Virus record (IMG/VR): IMGVR_UViG_3300029258_002569 | Coordinates: 1 to 40,573 of that record | Strand: one strand, 5' to 3' | Length of the DNA stretch: 40,573 bases | Source: a virus | Shown: one piece after another, positions 4,646 to 30,224 of the stretch | Layout: each line of letters starts with the position of its first letter | Position numbering within the stretch: position 1 is the stretch's first letter | Program-made: the position numbers and the translations under genes | The notes under the pieces: generated by a model | Database searches by the model: none | Told to the model about the DNA's origin: nothing | The model's input: only the letters and a program-made list of their open reading frames with translations

Positions 4646-5028
4646 TATACCTCCCAGCCTCCCACGATGCCTTTCTGCTCCGCCCCGTATTTTGCAAAGG
4701 GCGTGAGATCCCGGCACAGAAACCGCACGTGTGCGGTGCCCTGCTCTTGTGCCCAGGCGTCCACGGCGGCCTTGAGCTCCGCGTTTTCGGCCTTGTCGCC
4801 GCCGGAGTAAAAAAAGAGAATCAGCACGTGATCGCTCACGGGCCGGTGCACGGCGTTCACCGCCACCAGGTAGCCGGTTGTGCCCCCGATGATCAGCACC
4901 CGGGGGTTGTGCACGTTGGCCATGAGCCACTGGATCCACTCGGGCCTGGTGCCGGGCAGCACGTCCTCGATGCCGTCGTTGAGGGCCTTGAGCTTGAGAA
5001 TGTCGTCCGGTTCGAGTTTTTTGATCAT
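4645..5028 (-). CDS. GNAT-like tail-module protein
   Basis: 127 aa. The start ATG (5028) overlaps the upstream stop as ATGA, and the stop overlaps the tip gene as TAATG, so it is tightly coupled on both sides. The pattern VLIIGGTTGYLVAVNAV...ILFFYSGG...AELKAAVDAWAQEQGTAHVRFLCRD...FAKYGAEQKG resembles a small GNAT acyltransferase fold (beta strands 4-5 and the C-terminal helix). The acetyl-CoA loop is not clear, so catalysis is uncertain. Small proteins of this type occur between the hub and tip genes of siphoviral tail modules, where they may act in assembly. Confidence 0.6.
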   Translation of the reverse strand: MIKKLEPDDILKLKALNDGIEDVLPGTRPEWIQWLMANVHNPRVLIIGGTTGYLVAVNAVHRPVSDHVLILFFYSGGDKAENAELKAAVDAWAQEQGTAHVRFLCRDLTPFAKYGAEQKGIVGGWEV

Positions 5029-6298: not shown

Positions 6299-8589
6299 TA
6301 TATCCTGCTCCTCACCCGGGCCCGGATGGGGCCGTCATTATCGTAGGATCGCACCACCGCGCCGGGTGCCACCCGCTCGGCGATCTGGGTGGCGATGTTG
6401 GCCATCACCTGGCGCTGGGTGGCCTGATCCTGGAAGGTGGGGTTTTCCATGATGATATACACGTCGCCCTTGCCGCGCGGCTCGCCCGCGGTCTTCACGC
6501 CCAGGTCGCCGCTCGATGTGCGGGCCAGGGGCATGACCGCCTCCGGTCCCTTCTCGCCCATGAGTCCCATGCCGCCCGCCATCGGGAACATGGTAGGTTT
6601 ATCCACGATGCCGCCCCGGGCGTAGGGGAGGAGTCTGCTCTGGTCGATGACCCCGCCCTTGGCCAGGGGGATGCCCATCATGGCGAGCAGGGGCTTTACC
6701 ACATAGGCCTGGATGAGCATCTGGGTCACCATCCGGGCAAAGGCCCGGAGGATGTCCTTGAAGGTGGTCTCCGCGTTCCAGAGCATATCGTTCAACTGGG
6801 CTGAAAAGTTACTGGCCCAGCCGGCCACGGCGTTCTTGAGGTTATCGGTCATGGTCTGGTGTTTCTGCTCGATGGATTTGAAGGACTTGGCAACACCCTC
6901 CTCGATGTCTTCATATAACTGCCATTCCGCCGCAAGCTGGGCCTGCCTGCCCGCGGCCAGAAATTCCTCTTTCTCGGCCAGCAGGGCCTTTTCCTTCTCC
7001 CAGGCCTCTTCGGCCCAATTATAGTCCATCATCACGAGCTCGCCGTACTCGGCGGCCTGCCGGTTGACCCCGGCCCAGGCCTCCTCCACGCCTTTGCCCA
7101 TTTCCGCGATCTCTTTCATAACCGCAGGATCTATGCCCCCGCCGCCCCCAATGCCGCCTCCATTCCCATCTCCACCGCCGCCTCCTCCACCATCGCCGCC
7201 CTTGTCTCGCTCGGCCGCCAGGCGCTGCTCTTCGGCGATGGATTTGTCGATCAGGGCGATGCGCTTCTGTAATACCTCGATCTGGGCCTTGTATTGATCC
7301 GTGACCTCATTCACATTCACGCCCTGCATTTTGAGCATGTCGGCAAAGGCCGAGTCGTGGCTCATATTGGTGCGCAGGGCCTCGATGCGCTTTTGGAGTG
7401 CTGCCCGCTGGTCCTTGAGCGTGTCGATTATAGTGCCCGATCGCAGGTTGAGAAATTTTGTCCAGTATTCCACGGCATCGGAGATATATCCGGCCCACTC
7501 TTTTACCGCCGGAGAAAGTATGTCTCCCAGAAAAATAGCGGCCTTTTCCATCGAGGCTTTAAGTTCGTCCCACGAGGAGACTGAGCTCTTTTTGTAATCG
7601 TCCCATGCCTGTGCACCAGATCCCGTCTTCTGGGATAGTGCCTCCACCTTATCCGCAAGCTTACTAAACTCATTTGCCCCCAGGGCGGACATGCCTTTAA
7701 GGCCTTCCACTCGTTGAAAGAGCTCGGCCATTTTTTCCGCAGATCCGCCGGTTTGGGCCTGAAGCCGCCGGAGGGTTTCAGCAAGCCCCAGTTCCTGAAT
7801 CGCCGCCTGGGCGCTCTCATACCCCATTGCATGCACGGCATCTTTCATGGCCTCGGTCGGCTTCATGAGCGCCATGAGTATGCCCTGGTACTGTGTGGCA
7901 GCCTCCGCCGTGTTCCCGGCCGTCTGGGTTACGAGGGCCAGGGAGGCGCCGAGCTCGTCCTGACTGACGCCCAAGTCATGTGATAGTTTCGCCAGGCTGC
8001 CGATAATGGGCACCAGCTCACCCACCGTGGTCTGGCCTTCTTTTTCGATGGCAAAGAGCAGGTCGGCCGCCTCGGCTGCGTTTTTGATCTCGCCCTCATA
8101 GCCGGCCATGAGCTTGGTGAGCGCCTTGATCGCCTCGGCCTGGCTTACATGAGCCGCCTTTGCGGTTTTGGATGCCGTGACCAGGAGCTCCATCGATTTG
8201 ATGGGATGTTTTACGCCTGCGGAAATGACCTGATAATACCCCTTTACCATCTCCGTTGCGGTGCCGAGAGCCGGCGGTAAGGCCATAATTTTCTGTTTGA
8301 TCCAATCCAGGCTTTGGGTGGTGACTTTTTTCATGTCGATCAAGGAGATCTCCCATTCGGCATGCTTTTTGATGATCTTTCCGATTGCCATTACGGTGCC
8401 GGCCATTGCGGCGGTTACGGCCAGCCAGTGCTGCTTGAGCTTCTGGAGCGAGGCCCCCATGCTCTTACTGGCCTTGTCCGCGTTGGCGCGCATCTTGCCG
8501 AAGGCCTGCTCGGTGTTCTTGTCGAACCCGCGCACCACGGCCGTGCCTTTGTCGTCGACCTCAAGCCGGATGTAGATCTTATTTGCCAT
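6298..8589 (-). CDS. Tail tape measure protein
   Basis: 763 aa, helical and alanine-rich. The N-terminal part (about 1-330) has the typical tape-measure start (KIYIRLEVDDKGTAVVRGFD) and a minor-tail domain with the conserved GTATEMVKGYYQVISAGVK and QYQGILMALMKPTEAMKDAV segments. A glycine-rich low-complexity linker near residues 463-486 (7136-7200) separates it from a C-terminal part with LAKGGVIDQ...ARGGIVDKPTMFPM, the glycine/Phe-Pro motif typical of tape-measure C-termini. At 763 residues the protein is short for the family, so a fairly short tail is expected. No Shine-Dalgarno sequence is evident; the leader is occupied by a repeat block (8601-8665). Confidence 0.9.
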   Translation of the reverse strand: MANKIYIRLEVDDKGTAVVRGFDKNTEQAFGKMRANADKASKSMGASLQKLKQHWLAVTAAMAGTVMAIGKIIKKHAEWEISLIDMKKVTTQSLDWIKQKIMALPPALGTATEMVKGYYQVISAGVKHPIKSMELLVTASKTAKAAHVSQAEAIKALTKLMAGYEGEIKNAAEAADLLFAIEKEGQTTVGELVPIIGSLAKLSHDLGVSQDELGASLALVTQTAGNTAEAATQYQGILMALMKPTEAMKDAVHAMGYESAQAAIQELGLAETLRRLQAQTGGSAEKMAELFQRVEGLKGMSALGANEFSKLADKVEALSQKTGSGAQAWDDYKKSSVSSWDELKASMEKAAIFLGDILSPAVKEWAGYISDAVEYWTKFLNLRSGTIIDTLKDQRAALQKRIEALRTNMSHDSAFADMLKMQGVNVNEVTDQYKAQIEVLQKRIALIDKSIAEEQRLAAERDKGGDGGGGGGGDGNGGGIGGGGGIDPAVMKEIAEMGKGVEEAWAGVNRQAAEYGELVMMDYNWAEEAWEKEKALLAEKEEFLAAGRQAQLAAEWQLYEDIEEGVAKSFKSIEQKHQTMTDNLKNAVAGWASNFSAQLNDMLWNAETTFKDILRAFARMVTQMLIQAYVVKPLLAMMGIPLAKGGVIDQSRLLPYARGGIVDKPTMFPMAGGMGLMGEKGPEAVMPLARTSSGDLGVKTAGEPRGKGDVYIIMENPTFQDQATQRQVMANIATQIAERVAPGAVVRSYDNDGPIRARVRSRI

Positions 8590-22540: not shown

Positions 22541-22617
22541 TAGGCTAGGACGCTTGAGGCTTGGACGCTAGAAGGCTTTAAGGCATCTCAGCTTTCTGGC
22601 TTCCTAGCCTTCTTGCC
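22541..22617. repeat. TAGGACGCTTGAGGC / TTCCTAGCC block
   Basis: CTAGGACG, CTTGAGGC, TTGGACGC, TAGAAGGC ... CTTTCTGG, CTTCCTAG, CCTTCTTG units fill the gap between two genes. Confidence 0.7.
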
Positions 22618-22927
22618 GTCCCCCTGCTTTCTTTTCCAGTCTGACCATCGGGCAGAACTGGTTGGTGTTGATGGCGTCCGTCATTTTCTGCATGGCCGTG
22701 GTATTCATGATCACCACGTCCTTGAGATCCTGGGCCAGGCCCTGATAGGACTGCACCAGCTTCACGTTGTTCTCGTACATCTTGCGCTGTTCCGCCATGT
22801 CGGTCTTGTACCGCTCCAGGATCTTGCGCAGGGCCTTGGAGTCGAAATACCAGATCATGACGATCACGCCCACCAGGCCGAAGGCCCGGAAGATTTCCAG
22901 CAGTCCCGCGAGGTTGATGGTTTCCAT
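22604..22927 (-). CDS. Membrane-anchored coiled-coil protein
   Basis: 107 aa. One transmembrane helix (about residues 6-27, LAGLLEIFRAFGLVGVIVMI) is followed by a cytosolic or periplasmic coiled coil (LRKILERYKTDMAEQRKMYE ... YQGLAQDLKDVVIMNTTAMQ). Shape and position near lysis genes fit an inner-membrane spanin or a phage accessory membrane protein. The distance from the lipoprotein gene (two genes away) makes spanin pairing uncertain. Its C-terminus (RQEG) and stop lie in a CTAGCC repeat. Confidence 0.6.
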   Translation of the reverse strand: METINLAGLLEIFRAFGLVGVIVMIWYFDSKALRKILERYKTDMAEQRKMYENNVKLVQSYQGLAQDLKDVVIMNTTAMQKMTDAINTNQFCPMVRLEKKAGGRQEG

Positions 22928-23351: not shown

Positions 23352-23437
23352 TCCAGTGATCAGTCATCAGTCTCCCGCCTGCGGCGAGAGCAGTAATCAG
23401 TTTTTTACTGAACACTGAACACTGTTTACTGATTACT
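23352..23437. repeat. ACTGATN / ACTGAAC repeat with CCCGC palindrome
   Basis: CCAGTGATCAGTCATCAGT, then CCCGCCTGCGGCGAG, then CAGTAATCAG, ACTGAAC, ACTGAAC, ACTGTTT and ACTGATTAC. The minus strand provides the last codons (SNQ) and TAA of the lipoprotein gene. Confidence 0.75.
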
Positions 23438-23857
23438 TTCTTCCTGCGCTGCGCCAAGCCCCTCTCTGAACCCGGCCAGCACGATCTTGACCATCGCCAT
23501 ATAGTCGCCGGTCAGAAACGGCAGGTCCGGGGGCTGGAGCTTGGGAAATTCCAACAATCGGACTAGCTTCTTGAGCTGCATCTCCAGAAACGGCTCGTCA
23601 ACCACCAGGTCGAACCCCTTGACCAGCAAGCTCTCGTAGCTCAGCACGGTGTCGCCTTGGTCCAGGGCCGTAATCTCGTCGAGCCAGGCATTCCACTGCG
23701 GGATCTTATCCACGTTGTTCCGGCCCACGTAGTAGCCGATGGTGGAGGCGCTGATGTCAGCCGCCGTCTCGGTGGTCGCGTCTTTCTTGATCGAGACGCC
23801 GGCGCACCCGGTCAAGAAGAGTGTCGCCAGTATCAGGGTCAATAGTTTTGTTTTCAT
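23426..23857 (-). CDS. Phage lipoprotein
   Basis: 143 aa with a lipoprotein signal: MKTKLLTLILATLFLTGC, where LTGC is a lipobox and Cys18 the acylated residue. The mature protein is helical (AADISASTIGYYVGRNNVD, IPQWNAWLDEITALDQGDTV) and is larger than Rz1-type o-spanins. Phage lipoproteins of this type occur next to lysis genes. The 5' end overlaps a 55-codon frame by about 100 bp in another frame, an Rz/Rz1-like arrangement. Confidence 0.75.
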   Translation of the reverse strand: MKTKLLTLILATLFLTGCAGVSIKKDATTETAADISASTIGYYVGRNNVDKIPQWNAWLDEITALDQGDTVLSYESLLVKGFDLVVDEPFLEMQLKKLVRLLEFPKLQPPDLPFLTGDYMAMVKIVLAGFREGLGAAQEESNQ

Positions 23858-23924
23858 GATCTATGGCCTTGTCTATAAGTTTGATGAGTGCGTACTCGAT
23901 AATGTGCGCCCAGATGCCGCCCAT
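23757..23924 (-). CDS. Possible small overlapping gene upstream of the lipoprotein
   Basis: 55 aa: MGGIWAHIIEYALIKLIDKA, then IDHENKTIDPDTGDTLLDRV and a very basic end. Its ATG overlaps the stop of the holin-like gene (TAATG), and its 3' part lies in another frame over the first 100 bases of the lipoprotein gene. The N-terminal 20 residues look like a genuine amphipathic helix; the overlapped part could be relaxed. Translational coupling supports it, but no membrane segment marks it as a spanin. Confidence 0.45.
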   Translation of the reverse strand: MGGIWAHIIEYALIKLIDKAIDHENKTIDPDTGDTLLDRVRRRLDQERRDHRDGG

Positions 23925-24139
23925 TACGATGCCTTGCGCCCTTCCCTGATCTTGGAGATCAGGGCCAGGATGCCGCCGATGCCGGCGAGGATCCCGGCGA
24001 CCAGCTCGTATGCCGCCTCGGTGTCTTCCACGCCCACATTGTAGCCGTAATAGCCCAGCACGAATGCGGCCAAGCCCAGCACGGCCGCGCCGATCCGTCC
24101 CCAGATCAACGATGCGGGCCATGAATCTTTGGTGTACAT
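23924..24139 (-). CDS. Holin-like protein, two transmembrane helices
   Basis: 71 aa. Two hydrophobic helices (about 12-33, LIWGRIGAAVLGLAAFVLGY; about 46-62, LVAGILAGIGGILALI) joined by an acidic loop (VEDTEAAYE), and a short basic tail (KIREGRKAS). This is the layout of class II holins. It lies two genes after the amidase, has an AAAGGAGG Shine-Dalgarno, and is followed at once by other envelope genes. Role: pore formation to release endolysin, inferred from topology and context. Confidence 0.65.
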   Translation of the reverse strand: MYTKDSWPASLIWGRIGAAVLGLAAFVLGYYGYNVGVEDTEAAYELVAGILAGIGGILALISKIREGRKAS

Positions 24140-24160: not shown

Positions 24161-24598
24161 TTACAGTGTTATCCGTGCATCCTCCGGAGCGCTGCGATAG
24201 AGCCCCGGATGGCATTGCATGCACCGTTGCTTTTGCTCTTGGGTGTAGTGCTTTCGCTTGTATGTTTTTTCCTCGTGATCGAACCCATATTCGAAGGGCT
24301 GTCCCTGCTTGAAATACCGGTACCCGAGCAGGTTCCCGCGCACATCCATAAGCAGGGCCGCGCGCTGCACAGCGGCCTCCGGATCCGGGTTCTGCATAAC
24401 GATCCATACCGTGCCCGGGTTATTCGTGGGTACGGTTTTAACCGCCTGCCAGGTATCGAACACGTCCGGGTCCAGCTCGCCCTCGTAGGTCCACGCCCGG
24501 GCCAGGTACACGGCGGCGAACAGCACGGCCAGCAGGATGATAATGGTGATGGTCACCCGCTTGAGCATTTTCCGGTAATAGTCGACTTCCCAGCCCAT
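24161..24598 (-). CDS. Membrane-anchored protein with a CxxCH heme c motif
   Basis: 145 aa. An N-terminal membrane helix (about residues 15-34, VTITIIILLAVLFAAVYLAR) is followed by a soluble domain with PTNNPGTVWIVMQNPDPEAA and VRGNLLGYRYFKQGQ. The C-terminus has C126-M-Q-C129-H130 followed by PGLY, the CxxCH heme c attachment motif. It resembles an N-anchored monoheme c-type cytochrome. AAGGAGG precedes the ATG, and it lies between the amidase and the holin-like genes. A phage-borne cytochrome-like protein in a lysis cassette is unusual. It could alternatively bind zinc. Confidence 0.6.
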   Translation of the reverse strand: MGWEVDYYRKMLKRVTITIIILLAVLFAAVYLARAWTYEGELDPDVFDTWQAVKTVPTNNPGTVWIVMQNPDPEAAVQRAALLMDVRGNLLGYRYFKQGQPFEYGFDHEEKTYKRKHYTQEQKQRCMQCHPGLYRSAPEDARITL

Positions 24599-24610
24599 GA
24601 TGCAGCCTCC

Positions 24611-25180
24611 TTACTGGTGAACGGGCGGTTGCCCGCTGGTATAATCCAGCAGGCCCCTGGCCAGGCGCAGGCCGATCCCGCGCCTGAACACGGCCCGGCC
24701 GAACGCGCCGTGCTCGCTTATGTTGTCGATAAAGCCGGTTTCGATCAGGAGTGCCGGCATTGCCGTGTATTTGAGCACAAACAGATTCCGGCTCTCCTTG
24801 ATGCCCCGAAAGGGATGGTGTTTAAAAAAACTGTCCACATGCGCTTTAATCGCCCCCGCCGCCTGCCTGCCGGGCACGCTGCCCGGATAGATCCAGATCT
24901 CTTCTCCCCTGGCCTCGGGCATGCCGTGATCGTCGATATCCGGGTCGGCGTTGCAGTGCACGGATACAAAGAGATCCGCGTGCCACGAGTTGGCCAGCTG
25001 CACCCGGTTGCCGAGCGGGATATACAGATCCGAGGTGCGGGTCAGCGCGGTCCAGTGGAAGCGCTGCAGCCCCTCCATGCAGGCCAGGGCGATGTCCAGC
25101 ACGACGTCCTTTTCTTTCAGGTCGCGGAAGGCCGCGCCCGGATCCTCGCCCCCGTGTCCCGGATCAAGGCAGATTTTCAT
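24611..25180 (-). CDS. Endolysin: N-acetylmuramoyl-L-alanine amidase (Amidase_3)
   Basis: 189 aa from the ATG at 25180, chosen for the AAAGAGGG ahead of it; a TTG at 25195 is also open. Zinc ligands of the Amidase_3 family are visible: H9 in DPGHGG, E23 in KEKDVVLD, H75 in SVHCNAD. The catalytic Glu is E147 in LLIETGFI. No signal peptide is present, so release through the adjacent holin-like protein is expected. It cleaves the amide bond between MurNAc and the stem peptide. Confidence 0.9.
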   Translation of the reverse strand: MKICLDPGHGGEDPGAAFRDLKEKDVVLDIALACMEGLQRFHWTALTRTSDLYIPLGNRVQLANSWHADLFVSVHCNADPDIDDHGMPEARGEEIWIYPGSVPGRQAAGAIKAHVDSFFKHHPFRGIKESRNLFVLKYTAMPALLIETGFIDNISEHGAFGRAVFRRGIGLRLARGLLDYTSGQPPVHQ

Positions 25181-25190
25181 ATCGCCCTCT

Positions 25191-25226
25191 TTCAATTGAC
25201 AATGGTCAATCGAAAATTTTCAATTA
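25191..25226. repeat. TCAATTG-type heptamer repeat
   Basis: TTCAATTGACAATGGTCAATCGAAAATTTTCAATT lies between the stop of the 133-aa gene (TAATTG, first T at 25226) and the amidase leader. Confidence 0.75.
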
Positions 25227-25625
25227 GGTGAGCGTTATATCGATATCCCCCGTGGCAAAGCTGGCCGTATCGCCGGACTGGATGTTCTTGGTGGTGTTCA
25301 GCTTGCCGTAGGCGATCATGTTGCCTGCCGTGGTCTTGTCGCACACGGCAAAGTCCGTTACCACACCCCAGTCCGCGGTGGCCTGGGCAAAGGTCACGGT
25401 CTGGGTATTCTCCGTGGCGCCCGCCGCCGCCGCATCCCAGGTGTTGCACCCTTTCCTGACGTAGCTCCCGCCCGAGACCTCGCTGGGCAGGGTGCTGCCC
25501 GTGTCGTCATCCGCAATGGTTGACTTGCACAGGGCCACATACAGGTTGGTGGGCACGGAATATTCGCCCGTCTTGAACACGTGGTCCAGCAGTTCGTTTT
25601 CCAGATAGTCCGAAAATGAGCCCAT
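25224..25625 (-). CDS. Phage structural protein (gp80-like family)
   Basis: 133 aa. MGSFSDYLENELLDHVFKTG ... PTNLYVALCKSTIADDDTGS is the characteristic start of a family of small phage virion proteins (gp80-like), where F.DY.E..LL.H.F is followed by an LYVAL strand. It continues with SYVRKGCNTWDAAAAGATEN and VTDFAVCDKTTAGNMIAYGK. AAAGGAGC precedes the ATG. Such proteins are usually fibre or tail accessories. Here it is placed downstream of a terminator and upstream of the amidase. Confidence 0.65.
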   Translation of the reverse strand: MGSFSDYLENELLDHVFKTGEYSVPTNLYVALCKSTIADDDTGSTLPSEVSGGSYVRKGCNTWDAAAAGATENTQTVTFAQATADWGVVTDFAVCDKTTAGNMIAYGKLNTTKNIQSGDTASFATGDIDITLT

Positions 25626-26466: not shown

Positions 26467-26500
26467 TAATTGTCAATTTTCAATCGTCAATTTTCAATTG
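26467..26500. repeat. TCAATTG-type repeat supplying a stop codon
   Basis: TAATTGTCAATTTTCAATCG followed by TCAATTTTCAATTG. The TGA of the glycosyltransferase-methyltransferase gene lies in its first unit. Confidence 0.75.
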
Positions 26501-27645
26501 CCGCGCCGTTGCCAGTACTGGCAGCATGCCTGGTGGTATCCCGACCGCCTGACCAGTTTGAATTCCGGCCTGAGATACCGCTCCTGGAGCGCCGTCTCTT
26601 CCTCCCGCCGGGCGTCGTGCACGATGATATGATCGCCCATAAGAGCTGCGAGAAACAGTGCCATTTCACGCCCCGGGCCGCCGCCCTCTTTAGATGGAGG
26701 CCCGTCTATGAACACTATGTCGAATGGCTCGGGCAATTCCATGTCTGTAAATTGGATGCCGTCCCACTCGCGCACGATCACGGTTTCCGTGCCCTGGTTC
26801 CGGATCCGCTCGGCCCATTGCGCGTCCGTCTCATAGCTGATCACCGGGGCGTAGTCGCTCATCAACAGGGTGCTCAGCCCGGCGCCGAATTCCAGGATGT
26901 TCCGGGGCTGCACGTCCGTGATGATCCGCTTGATGAATTCCCAGTCCGCCGGCGTAATCGCCCAGCCGCCCCAGGGGATGTCGTAGTTGTGCGCGGCCGG
27001 ATCCACCTCCTGGGAGCTGCTCAGGCCCTGGAAGGCCAGCATGCCCACCTGCTTGTAGTGCTCGCACACCCGTTGGGGCGTGGTGAAGATCTCGAACCCG
27101 GCCGCCCCTGCCTTGCGGCAGAACGCGAAGTCCGTGCCCACGGTGCACACGCCGTGCTCGTCGAAGTCCGTGTGAAAGGGTGCTTCCAGGGCCTCCAGCA
27201 CCCGCCGGGCGATCAGGATGCACCCCGTGCCCACGACGTCTACCTTGAGCAGCTCGATGTCGTCGTCCACCAGGGCGAAATCCACGGGCGCATAGGCGTC
27301 TTCCGCGCGGGGATCTTTCACATAGGCCACGAAGTTGAGCTGGCGGCCGGCCTGGCGCACCGGGGCCGGAAACCCGACGATGTCCTTGTCCGCATGCACG
27401 AACTCGGCCGGGTTGTCCAGGGGCACCACGTCGTCGTCCAGCATGAGCAGGAAGTCATGGTCCGTTTCCAGGAACCGCCTGACGATCAGGTTGCGGTTGG
27501 ATGATATAGGATGCGCCCAGGTCTTGGCTGGATTCTCCCAGGTAATGTACACACCCTCGGTTGCCTTTAATTTCGGCAGGAGATCCGTGACGATCTCGGT
27601 GCGGATCCACCCGTGATTGAGTATTGCCAAGTACAGTTTTTTCAT
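26494..27645 (-). CDS. Glycosyltransferase-methyltransferase fusion
   Basis: 383 aa from MKKLYLAILNHGW at 27645; an upstream in-frame start at 27705 would translate repeat DNA. Residues 1-200 are a GT-A glycosyltransferase-like domain: LAILNHGWIRTE, SSNRNLIVRRFLETDHDFLL, the metal-binding DDD at 70-72, and GTDFAFCRKAGAAGFEIFTT near 170-189. Residues 235-383 are a class I SAM methyltransferase-like domain: motif I LEFGAGLS at 251-258, ISYETD at 269-274, FDIVFIDGPP at 308-317, IIVHDARR at 340-347. It lies next to the fibre gene. It may decorate a virion protein or a host glycan. Confidence 0.75.
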   Translation of the reverse strand: MKKLYLAILNHGWIRTEIVTDLLPKLKATEGVYITWENPAKTWAHPISSNRNLIVRRFLETDHDFLLMLDDDVVPLDNPAEFVHADKDIVGFPAPVRQAGRQLNFVAYVKDPRAEDAYAPVDFALVDDDIELLKVDVVGTGCILIARRVLEALEAPFHTDFDEHGVCTVGTDFAFCRKAGAAGFEIFTTPQRVCEHYKQVGMLAFQGLSSSQEVDPAAHNYDIPWGGWAITPADWEFIKRIITDVQPRNILEFGAGLSTLLMSDYAPVISYETDAQWAERIRNQGTETVIVREWDGIQFTDMELPEPFDIVFIDGPPSKEGGGPGREMALFLAALMGDHIIVHDARREEETALQERYLRPEFKLVRRSGYHQACCQYWQRRGN

Positions 27646-27689
27646 TCCCGATTTTCTCACTTTCTTTAATTCCCCTGCATGTTTCCAGC

Positions 27690-27723
27690 AATTTTCAATT
27701 TTCAATCGTCAATTGTCAATTGT
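27690..27723. repeat. TCAATTG-type repeat supplying the fibre stop
   Basis: AATTTTCAATTTTCAATCGT followed by CAATTGTCAATTG. The minus strand encodes QLTIDD and the stop codon of the 840-aa fibre protein. Confidence 0.75.
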
Positions 27724-30224
27724 CTCCGTTCCGTATCCTCGGTCATCGTTCTCCGCGCGCTATCCATCGTGAGATCGCGCCGTTCGACATCCGTGGTGAA
27801 TATGCGCCGGTACGCGGCCACGGCCAGGCCTGCCAGGCGGCCGGCCACGCTTGAGATGCCGGCGACGCCCCCGGAAAGCGAGAACCGGCGGATCAGGCCG
27901 GCCGACGCGCCGGATGCCGCTGCAATGGTACCGGCAAGCGATCTGGCTGCGCGCACCGTGCCCGATATCGCCGAGCTCGCGGCCGCGGATCCGGCCAGGG
28001 CGCGTGCGCGATGAACAAGCCCGGAAATCGCCGATGATGCGGCCACGCTGCCCGCCAGGGCTCGGGCCGCCCGCATGGTGCCGCTCACGGCGGAGGCCGC
28101 GGCTACAGCACCCTTTAAGACGACCGCCCCGCCCAGGGAGAGCCCGCCGGACACGGCGGAGACCGCTGCGCTTGCACCGGCCAGCACCCTGGCGGCGATG
28201 AGATTCGCGGCCGTGCTTGATGTTGCCGCGATGGTGCCGCTCAGGGATCGGGCCGCCGTGAGTGTTCCGGATACCGCTGTGCTCGCGGCGATACTGCCCC
28301 TGAGAATAAGCTCTCCGGCCAGGGAAAGTATGCCGGAAACCGTCGAAGACGCGGCGGAGGAGCCGGACAAGACTAGTCTGAGTATGAGGCCGGCCGCTGC
28401 GGTTGAAGTGCCGGCAACGGAGCCGCTTAAATGCCGCGCGATCTGCATGCCGCCTGATACGGCGGATGCAGCCGCGCTGGTTCCTCTGAGCGTGATCTTC
28501 CCCAGGATGGACACGGCCCCGGAAACGGCGGAGCTTGCAGCGATGGTTCCTGCTAATGACCGGGCCCGGCTTATGATGCCGCTCACTGCTGAGCTTGCTG
28601 CAACAGAGCCGATGAGGGATCTTGCTGCCTGCAGATTCCCGGATACCGTGCTGCTTGCTGCCGCGCTGCCCAGCAATGCGCGGGCGCGGCTGATGATGCC
28701 CGCCGCGGTTGAGCTTGCGGCGATGGTGCCGATGAGCTTTCTGCCCGCGATGAGCGCACCTGATACGGCGGAGACCGCTGCGCTGGTCCCGGCCAGCACC
28801 TTGGCGGCGATGAGATTTGCGGCCGTTGTCGAGCTTGCCGCAACCGTGCCCGCCAGGGACCGGGCCGCGTTGATGGCGCCGGTTACCGCCGAGCTTGCGG
28901 CCAGGCTGCCCGCCAGGGACCTGCCCCGGCTGATGATGCCCGCCGCGGTTGAGCTTGCGGCGATGGTGCCGATGAGTTTCCGCGCGGCCCGGAGCGCACC
29001 GGTGATGCCCGAAGCAGCGGCCGCGGATCCAACCAGGGCACGGGCGGCCTTCAACGCGCCGGACAGCGCCGAGCTCGCCGCGATATCTCCGGACAGTGCC
29101 CGGCCGATGATCAGGGCGGCCGCCGCACCGCCCGCCCCGGCGGCAGCCCCGGCCAGCTCGTGCGTCTCTCCCCCCGCCGCCACATACTCACTCGCCCCGA
29201 CGTCCCACACTGCATCTGCCGAACTTTCATTTGGCCTTTCATTGCCTGCAATATCGTATTTGAATAAGGGGTCTCCCGCCGTGTCATTGCGAAGGAAGTC
29301 GTCGAAGTCCGTGGTGGCCGTTACATCGTTATAGGGGTTTCTGCCGCATCTGTCTCCGGCATTGCCGTTGGCTGAGATATGTGCCGTGGCAAGGTGATTG
29401 GCATCGAGGCTGTCAGAGTAATCAATGCTGTTTTTGTAGTTATCTCCCGCTGTACCATCCAAATCCGCCGTGGCATCATCGGCAGCATTCCAGCCTGACG
29501 GAGAATCCCAGTTAGACTCGGTAAAACAGCCTCCACTGCCTTCCGCCTCGTATGAATAACAACTGAAGGCAATGGCGGTGCCATCGGCAGAACGTGAATA
29601 AATGGCATTGTAGATACCGCTTACAGACTTGCAGGCCGTGCAGCAAATTGTTCCAATCGTTTCGCCGGAACCTGCGTCGATTGAATAAGATTCAGTGGCA
29701 GTATTATAAACTATACAGGCGTAGAATAAGGTTGCGTCGGCATTGGTTTTAGCTCCAGAGCAATCATCTGTCGTATTTACAGCACACCCTATTGCCTTGG
29801 CATGTGTGCCTTTTAGGTATATTGTCTTTGCTGTAGCCGATGTCGATGTATGCTCTATATAAATATTAACAAATCGGCCCCACGCCTCGCTGATAAGAAA
29901 CGTGTCTGAATCTTGTGCATGTACGAAATTAGCCCCTGTGCCGTCTTTTCCCGCCCACGGAGTAGCACAACTGGCCGAAGATTTTACCACTCTATAATGG
30001 GTGCTGTCCGTATTGGTTGCACCCGCCATATCGGTTATGTAATCATCGTGATCCTGACTGTCGTAACAATCAAGGGTGGTTATGCCCGTACCGCTTAAGT
30101 CGTTATCCGATGCGGCTTCCCAGGTATCTAAAGACGAATAATCAGGATTGCCGCCGCCGGGCAGGGAACCGTCGCCGCCGGAGTCGTAGGTACAGGTGTA
30201 TGGAGATTCGTCGTAGCACGCCAT
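27702..30224 (-). CDS. Beta-helix fibre with 21 alanine-rich 20-residue repeats
   Basis: 840 aa. Residues 1-350 resemble a right-handed parallel beta-helix surface protein, with DYSSLDTWEAASDNDLSG near the start, many short Cys-containing strands, and the DAVWDVGASEYVA end mark common to such domains. Residues about 360-790 are roughly 21 tandem units near SLAGTIAASSAVSGAIRAAR, almost all exactly 20 residues (60 bp). The end has RRDLTMD, RRTMTED, RRQLTID triplets. The N-terminal part is noticeably more AT-rich than the repeats, so the protein is chimeric. Likely a tail fibre or receptor-binding surface protein. Its ATG overlaps the upstream stop (TAATG). Confidence 0.75.
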   Translation of the reverse strand: MACYDESPYTCTYDSGGDGSLPGGGNPDYSSLDTWEAASDNDLSGTGITTLDCYDSQDHDDYITDMAGATNTDSTHYRVVKSSASCATPWAGKDGTGANFVHAQDSDTFLISEAWGRFVNIYIEHTSTSATAKTIYLKGTHAKAIGCAVNTTDDCSGAKTNADATLFYACIVYNTATESYSIDAGSGETIGTICCTACKSVSGIYNAIYSRSADGTAIAFSCYSYEAEGSGGCFTESNWDSPSGWNAADDATADLDGTAGDNYKNSIDYSDSLDANHLATAHISANGNAGDRCGRNPYNDVTATTDFDDFLRNDTAGDPLFKYDIAGNERPNESSADAVWDVGASEYVAAGGETHELAGAAAGAGGAAAALIIGRALSGDIAASSALSGALKAARALVGSAAAASGITGALRAARKLIGTIAASSTAAGIISRGRSLAGSLAASSAVTGAINAARSLAGTVAASSTTAANLIAAKVLAGTSAAVSAVSGALIAGRKLIGTIAASSTAAGIISRARALLGSAAASSTVSGNLQAARSLIGSVAASSAVSGIISRARSLAGTIAASSAVSGAVSILGKITLRGTSAAASAVSGGMQIARHLSGSVAGTSTAAAGLILRLVLSGSSAASSTVSGILSLAGELILRGSIAASTAVSGTLTAARSLSGTIAATSSTAANLIAARVLAGASAAVSAVSGGLSLGGAVVLKGAVAAASAVSGTMRAARALAGSVAASSAISGLVHRARALAGSAAASSAISGTVRAARSLAGTIAAASGASAGLIRRFSLSGGVAGISSVAGRLAGLAVAAYRRIFTTDVERRDLTMDSARRTMTEDTERRQLTIDD
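28687..28976. repeat. Exact 50-bp duplication within the fibre repeats
   Basis: 28687-28736 and 28927-28976 are identical 50-mers, 240 bp apart, which is four 60-bp units. It indicates recent unit duplication or slippage within the array. Confidence 0.75.

Follow-up and report, generated by a model that had tools for sequence, protein, structure and literature searches.

Does a phage carry a heme c protein of its own among its lysis genes, and what might such a protein do there? The question is raised by the window (the whole stretch of DNA analysed here, 40,573 nt), an IMG/VR virus record of a Mu-like transposable phage that encodes MuA-like and MuB-like transposition proteins, terminase, portal, protease/major head, tape measure, and central tail fibre. 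A first-pass annotation drew attention to a heme c motif in a membrane protein of the lysis region and suggested that it could tap the electron transport chain or time lysis. We asked what the gene's neighbours, relatives, and predicted structure say about these proposals.

A membrane-anchored CMQCH protein next to the endolysin gene

The ORF at 24161..24598 (minus strand) encodes a 145-aa membrane-anchored protein (P0002) that is predicted to be periplasmic, and an AAGGAGG ribosome-binding site (24606..24612, minus strand) stands 7 nt before its ATG. Four basic residues precede a single hydrophobic N-terminal helix, the putative transmembrane (TM) anchor at residues ~12–33 (24500..24565, minus strand), which falls within a helix spanning residues 2–37 of the AlphaFold model; the positive-inside rule, applied by eye, predicts an N-in/C-out orientation. 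The anchor is followed by an EGELDP signature (residues 39–44; 24467..24484, minus strand), and at the end of the last helix lies CMQCH (residues 126–130; 24209..24223, minus strand), a putative heme c attachment site with PGLY directly after it (residues 131–134). The N-terminal anchor, good ribosome-binding site, and CMQCH that had been described are all present, and the span given earlier for CMQCH and PGLY, 126–133, was nearly right. CMQCH is the sole case of C..CH in the window (45,783 residues, stop-to-stop frames of at least 60 codons, both strands).

Directly upstream is an Amidase_3 endolysin without an apparent signal peptide (24611..25195, minus strand; Pfam 5.6e-34, PHROG endolysin 4.4e-36). 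Its stop overlaps the ribosome-binding site of the CMQCH gene, and this tight packing gives no sign of a separate transcription unit. The downstream neighbour is a 71-aa two-TM protein (23924..24139, minus strand), a candidate holin that is only weakly holin-like (PHROG holin E=0.3). Further along the region are a lipoprotein recognised by its LFLTGC lipobox (23426..23857, minus strand; no family match) and a TM protein with a coiled-coil-like sequence (22604..22927, minus strand), which is conserved in the cassettes of related phages (53–58% identity in L012 and L013).

Three other ORFs upstream of the amidase gene, all on the minus strand, stand out. A 133-aa ORF directly upstream (25224–25625) matches PHROG 240 'head protein' (1.2e-23) and lies apart from the other head genes, and a 403-aa protein upstream of the lysis region (26494–27705) is weakly similar to glycosyltransferases (PHROG 7e-05). 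Between the transposition and lysis regions, an 840-aa protein (27702–30224) contains a long run of SLAGTIAASSAVSG-type near-repeats and has no PHROG match.

Most relatives in other phages conserve the motif

No significant family match for the 145-aa protein was found in Pfam, PHROGs, or NCBIfam, and scans with the protein on its own found no significant close homologue among viral contigs, genome contigs, phage records, or plasmids; a match to a Jannaschia cytochrome c (E=6, 28%) was dropped. We gathered related phages via the terminase and amidase of the window phage, and recovered L069, L130, and L072 from viral contigs by DNA patterns of the protein motifs GELDP..F..W and NPD...Y.Y[FY]K.G. 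DNA-pattern and profile searches together gave four relatives, all in IMG/VR phage contigs, and five members are now known including that of the window.

Three of the relatives have C-M-x-C-H at the same place: CMKCH in L012, whose terminase is 69% identical to that of the window phage, and CMECH in L069 and L130. The fourth, L072, combines a signal peptide with the family domain (EGELDP, W, V, NPD, Y.Y.K.G) but stops short of the last helix and lacks CxxCH, which is not encoded in the DNA just past its stop either. C126, M127, C129, and H130 are accordingly invariant in four of the five members, and these four represent three distinct lineages. Domain identity between lineages is only ~30–41%; the four CxxCH-bearing members all agree at 24 of 100 domain columns, the C, M, C, and H of the motif among them, and 15 positions are invariant across all five, namely EGELDP, W50, V53, NPD 70–72, Y93, Y95, K97, and G99. 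All five members have an N-terminal TM or signal segment with basic residues ahead of it (by eye), and the L069 and L130 proteins have two additional cysteines (CMECHC...C; CMECHCDQIKGC).

The L069 and L130 proteins are 68% identical, and their domains differ with a dN of 0.15 and a dS of ~1.8, the latter near saturation, so the protein is maintained by purifying selection. Because relatives exist and show this ratio, we regard 24161–24598, on sequence grounds, as a real coding sequence. A single frameshift at 8041–8053 breaks the L012 copy in two, so this copy may be decayed or misassembled. Programmed frameshifting was considered and rejected, as a canonical −1 slippery heptamer is absent at the break (by eye), which makes sequencing error or gene decay likelier than recoding.

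A mobile gene, often but not always in the lysis cassette

In L012, the CxxCH gene directly follows an Amidase_3 gene and lies ahead of a 3-TM holin-like gene. In L130, it follows a Peptidase_M15_3 endolysin gene (1e-15) and precedes a gene for a small two-TM protein, after which come a 3-TM gene (holin-like by eye and without a match in Pfam), a TM coiled-coil-like gene, and the terminase small-subunit region. In L069, the gene is flanked by a gpW-like gene (by eye) and by a two-TM gene that is akin to the one in L130; the portal gene comes next, and no endolysin gene is adjacent. The assignment to the lysis region is strengthened by L012 and L130, where the gene follows an endolysin gene as it does in the window, and weakened by L069, where it sits beside the portal gene. 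Two-TM genes adjoin the CxxCH gene in L069 and L130 alike; a conserved pairing was nevertheless rejected, since the two-TM protein of the window has no match in either phage.

Among the window proteins tested, the CxxCH protein is the only one whose gene was detected as common to the window phage and L069 or L130. As no other window protein tested matches these phages, the gene has moved between phage lineages and was kept. The slot after the amidase gene is variable in relatives of the window phage: in L029, the amidase (65%) and two-TM (61%) genes adjoin without a CxxCH gene between them, L009 and L013 have TM peptides of 28–36 aa, and L027 and L028 have lipoproteins. These short single-TM peptides are encoded directly after the amidase gene (L009, ~47–130; L013, ~4860–4963), and that of L009 matches the L012 CxxCH protein's TM anchor almost exactly. 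The likeness in sequence looks as if a periplasmic domain had been gained by, or lost from, a small TM peptide. Around the CxxCH-less member, L072 (1222–7616) carries genes that by eye are glycosyltransferase-, radical-SAM-, methyltransferase-, and sulfotransferase-like.

Phages related to the window phage include a prophage in Desulfosarcina widdelii and one in a Syntrophaceae MAG; the hosts of these relatives are likely Desulfobacterota, and those of the window phage itself are probably sulfate-reducing or syntrophic anaerobes. We screened 395 genomes from the phylum of D. widdelii with a five-row profile and obtained 0 matches at E <= 0.001, while the same profile recovers all phage members expected; earlier profiles, run on narrower groups of 155 and 340 genomes, had found nothing convincing. 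Matches of a two-row profile in 395 Desulfobacterota genomes and a four-row match in the Desulfosarcina order were weak and were rejected, and L067, the profile match inspected in detail, is a solute-binding-type protein unrelated to CxxCH. Judged by these profile searches, the family is phage-only and accessory within the genomes sampled.

Predicted fold and comparison with cytochrome P460

AlphaFold modelled the full-length protein from three rows with a pLDDT of 78, and from six rows without the TM helix with a pLDDT of 80 and a pTM of 0.70. The model of the mature domain has a helix at 11–16, six strands, and a helix at 87–96 that carries the CxxC. Foldseek found no significant match in the PDB and nothing useful among viral models. 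The highest TM-score among the PDB matches listed belongs to cytochrome P460 of Methylococcus capsulatus (9hrk and 6hiu; TM 0.50/0.41, of which 0.50 is the query-normalised value; 132–133 columns; probability 0.89 and 0.75), with Foldseek E-values of 0.24 and 0.47 that are not significant. Cytochrome P460 was also listed for the full-length model (TM 0.38), for which the lysozyme inhibitor Ivy, at rank 1, was rejected with a TM of only 0.25.

P460 and c'-beta cytochromes have five-stranded antiparallel sheets and a single CxxCH heme whose His is the proximal ligand, their distal site takes small ligands, and their sequence conservation past CxxCH is very low (PMC11928373). The AlphaFold model of the phage protein fits this outline, with a predicted antiparallel beta-sheet ahead of one CxxCH close to the C-terminus; the protein is also probably exported, and a distal His/Met is not conserved in it. 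It differs in its smaller domain (~100 aa vs 125–140 aa), in the absence of a D-x-V-F motif after CxxCH, in its membrane anchor, and in the existence of one member without CxxCH. In sequence, Pfam gave no match to the P460 profile PF16694, and alignment with hhalign to P460 sequences from Desulfobacterota, where the P460 family occurs in 42 of 198 sampled genomes, covered mainly the CxxCH region. In local mode the profile comparison did not outscore column-shuffled controls, and of three global tests one gave a marginal signal, with 3 of 60 shuffles as good; membership in P460 by a sequence link was rejected against these controls. With a non-significant Foldseek match and at most a marginal profile signal, the link to the P460 fold is a lead and not membership. 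The invariant K97 is likewise kept in L072, which lacks CxxCH, and so cannot be assigned to heme as the Lys cross-link of P460.

Putative heme attachment and the axial ligands

In hosts with cytochrome c maturation, a periplasmic CxxCH is a signal for heme attachment. We consider that, on balance, CMxCH is likelier to be a heme site than not, and that the protein is probably a real, so far undescribed viral heme protein, with heme binding predicted. The only conserved Met and His residues are M127 and H130 inside CMxCH, and L069 and L130 have a single His in the whole protein, that of CxxCH. Of the features proposed for checking in homologues, CxxCH is conserved in four of the five members (it is absent from L072), whereas the distal Met or His expected of class I cytochromes c is not conserved. 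Neither class I cytochrome c nor multiheme families were matched; at E <= 10 the sole Pfam cytochrome model listed was PSCyt3, whose 0.12 falls below cut-off. A bound heme would probably have its sixth position open or occupied by some other residue. Because no distal His/Met is conserved, an open-site mono-heme c like that of P460/c'-beta fits better than an electron carrier, and ligand binding (NO, CO, sulfide) or a redox response fits better than classical electron transfer. The suggestion that the protein taps the electron transport chain has lost ground on both counts, the missing distal ligand and the single His of L069 and L130.

The closest evolutionary parallel, by analogy and without a sequence match, is sCache_heme (DUF3365/Tll0287), a family whose sensor scaffold, a Cache fold, acquired CxxCH as an insertion between its strands 3 and 4, and which includes stand-alone forms and has NO-binding or redox roles (PMC12889525). 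Both have a periplasmic domain that is not cytochrome-like, a single CxxCH, and related domains with and without the motif; in the phage protein, however, CxxCH is C-terminal, and Pfam gave no match to a DUF3365/Cache model.

A proposed role near lysis and its alternatives

The reading that we prefer, at about even odds (a probability of roughly 0.5), is that of an accessory, mobile, inner-membrane-anchored periplasmic mono-heme-c protein of phage lysis cassettes. An anchor in the inner membrane would hold a periplasmic beta-domain ending in the helix with CMxCH, where the cytochrome c maturation machinery of the host would covalently attach one heme. H130 would be the proximal ligand of a five-coordinate or water-ligated heme. 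Like the hemes of the cytochrome P460/c'-beta fold, it could take up NO, CO, or sulfide at its open site or switch between redox states. Made together with the lysis proteins, the protein would act locally in the periplasm around the time of lysis, most likely as a modulator or protector that responds to redox state or gas. In position, N-terminal anchor, and tight packing with an endolysin gene, it resembles the membrane proteins of lysis cassettes (holins, spanins, and lipoproteins), but it has none of the signatures of holins, antiholins, or spanins, and its CMxCH is conserved.

The protein could instead be cargo with no part in lysis: a moron, periplasmic and anchored in the membrane, that serves for example superinfection exclusion or host metabolism and has the lysis cassette as its insertion slot. 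The varying content of the slot (no CxxCH gene in L029, TM peptides in L009 and L013, lipoproteins in L027 and L028) and the L069 gene outside the lysis cassette, adjoining the portal gene, speak for this; we nonetheless hold it to be unlikely, given that in three phages the gene comes after that of an endolysin, with two unrelated types of endolysin represented, and, with the amidase stop overlapping its ribosome-binding site, has no transcription unit of its own apparent. Cargo of this kind may in any case bind heme. Slightly more doubtful is that CMxCH coordinates a metal, Zn or Cu(I), or acts as a redox-active thiol pair, and that the protein partners the holin or endolysin in a way that depends on the metal or the thiols. 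Such a site would account for a Met that is invariant though unneeded for heme attachment, and for the extra nearby cysteines of L069 and L130 (CMECHCDQIKGC), possibly a different metal site, and it sits well with the lack of a significant cytochrome family match. The domains of the window phage and L012, however, have, besides the motif His, only two cysteines, fewer conserved ligands than a Zn site usually needs; the predicted position in a C-terminal helix after a beta-sheet matches P460, and a periplasmic CxxCH generally signals heme attachment in Ccm-type hosts.

A classical electron-transfer cytochrome that taps the respiratory chain, and thereby triggers or times lysis via the proton-motive force, would suit the likely Desulfobacterota hosts of the relatives (the D. 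widdelii prophage and the Syntrophaceae MAG), which are rich in cytochromes c, and holin triggering is known to respond to membrane energy. The single heme, the unconserved distal His/Met, and the lack of matches to class I cytochrome c and multiheme families make this quite improbable. We give still less credence to a structural lysis protein, such as an Rz-like spanin subunit of the inner membrane, with an incidental CxxCH: an N-anchored periplasmic protein adjoining an endolysin gene would be in the right place, but the domain is predicted to be beta-rich and not a coiled coil, P0002 has no spanin match in PHROGs, CMxCH is conserved across lineages, and the same region holds a separate TM coiled-coil-like protein and a lipoprotein.

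Significance

The phage auxiliary metabolic gene SoxD carries the c-type heme motif CxxCHG (PMC8190135). Like SoxD, the present protein is phage-encoded and has a heme c motif; unlike SoxD, a recognisable homologue of a host enzyme, it belongs to a phage family without a detected cellular homologue. Known phage proteins with heme c motifs are copies of host enzymes, as SoxD is, and the present family is phage-only in the samples covered. In the literature searched, we found no phage-only family with a conserved heme c motif that occurs in unrelated phages, often beside the endolysin gene. The pair L130 and L072, which have the domain with and without CxxCH, would offer a case of heme motif gain or loss on one scaffold. 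An improbable, far-reaching version of our reading is a heme-gated lysis clock, in which phages of anaerobic respirers would encode a mono-heme-c lysis sensor of NO, sulfide, or respiratory redox state that adjusts holin-triggered lysis. Should heme binding be confirmed, one could test directly whether phages that infect anaerobes read or change the redox or gas chemistry of the periplasm around lysis.
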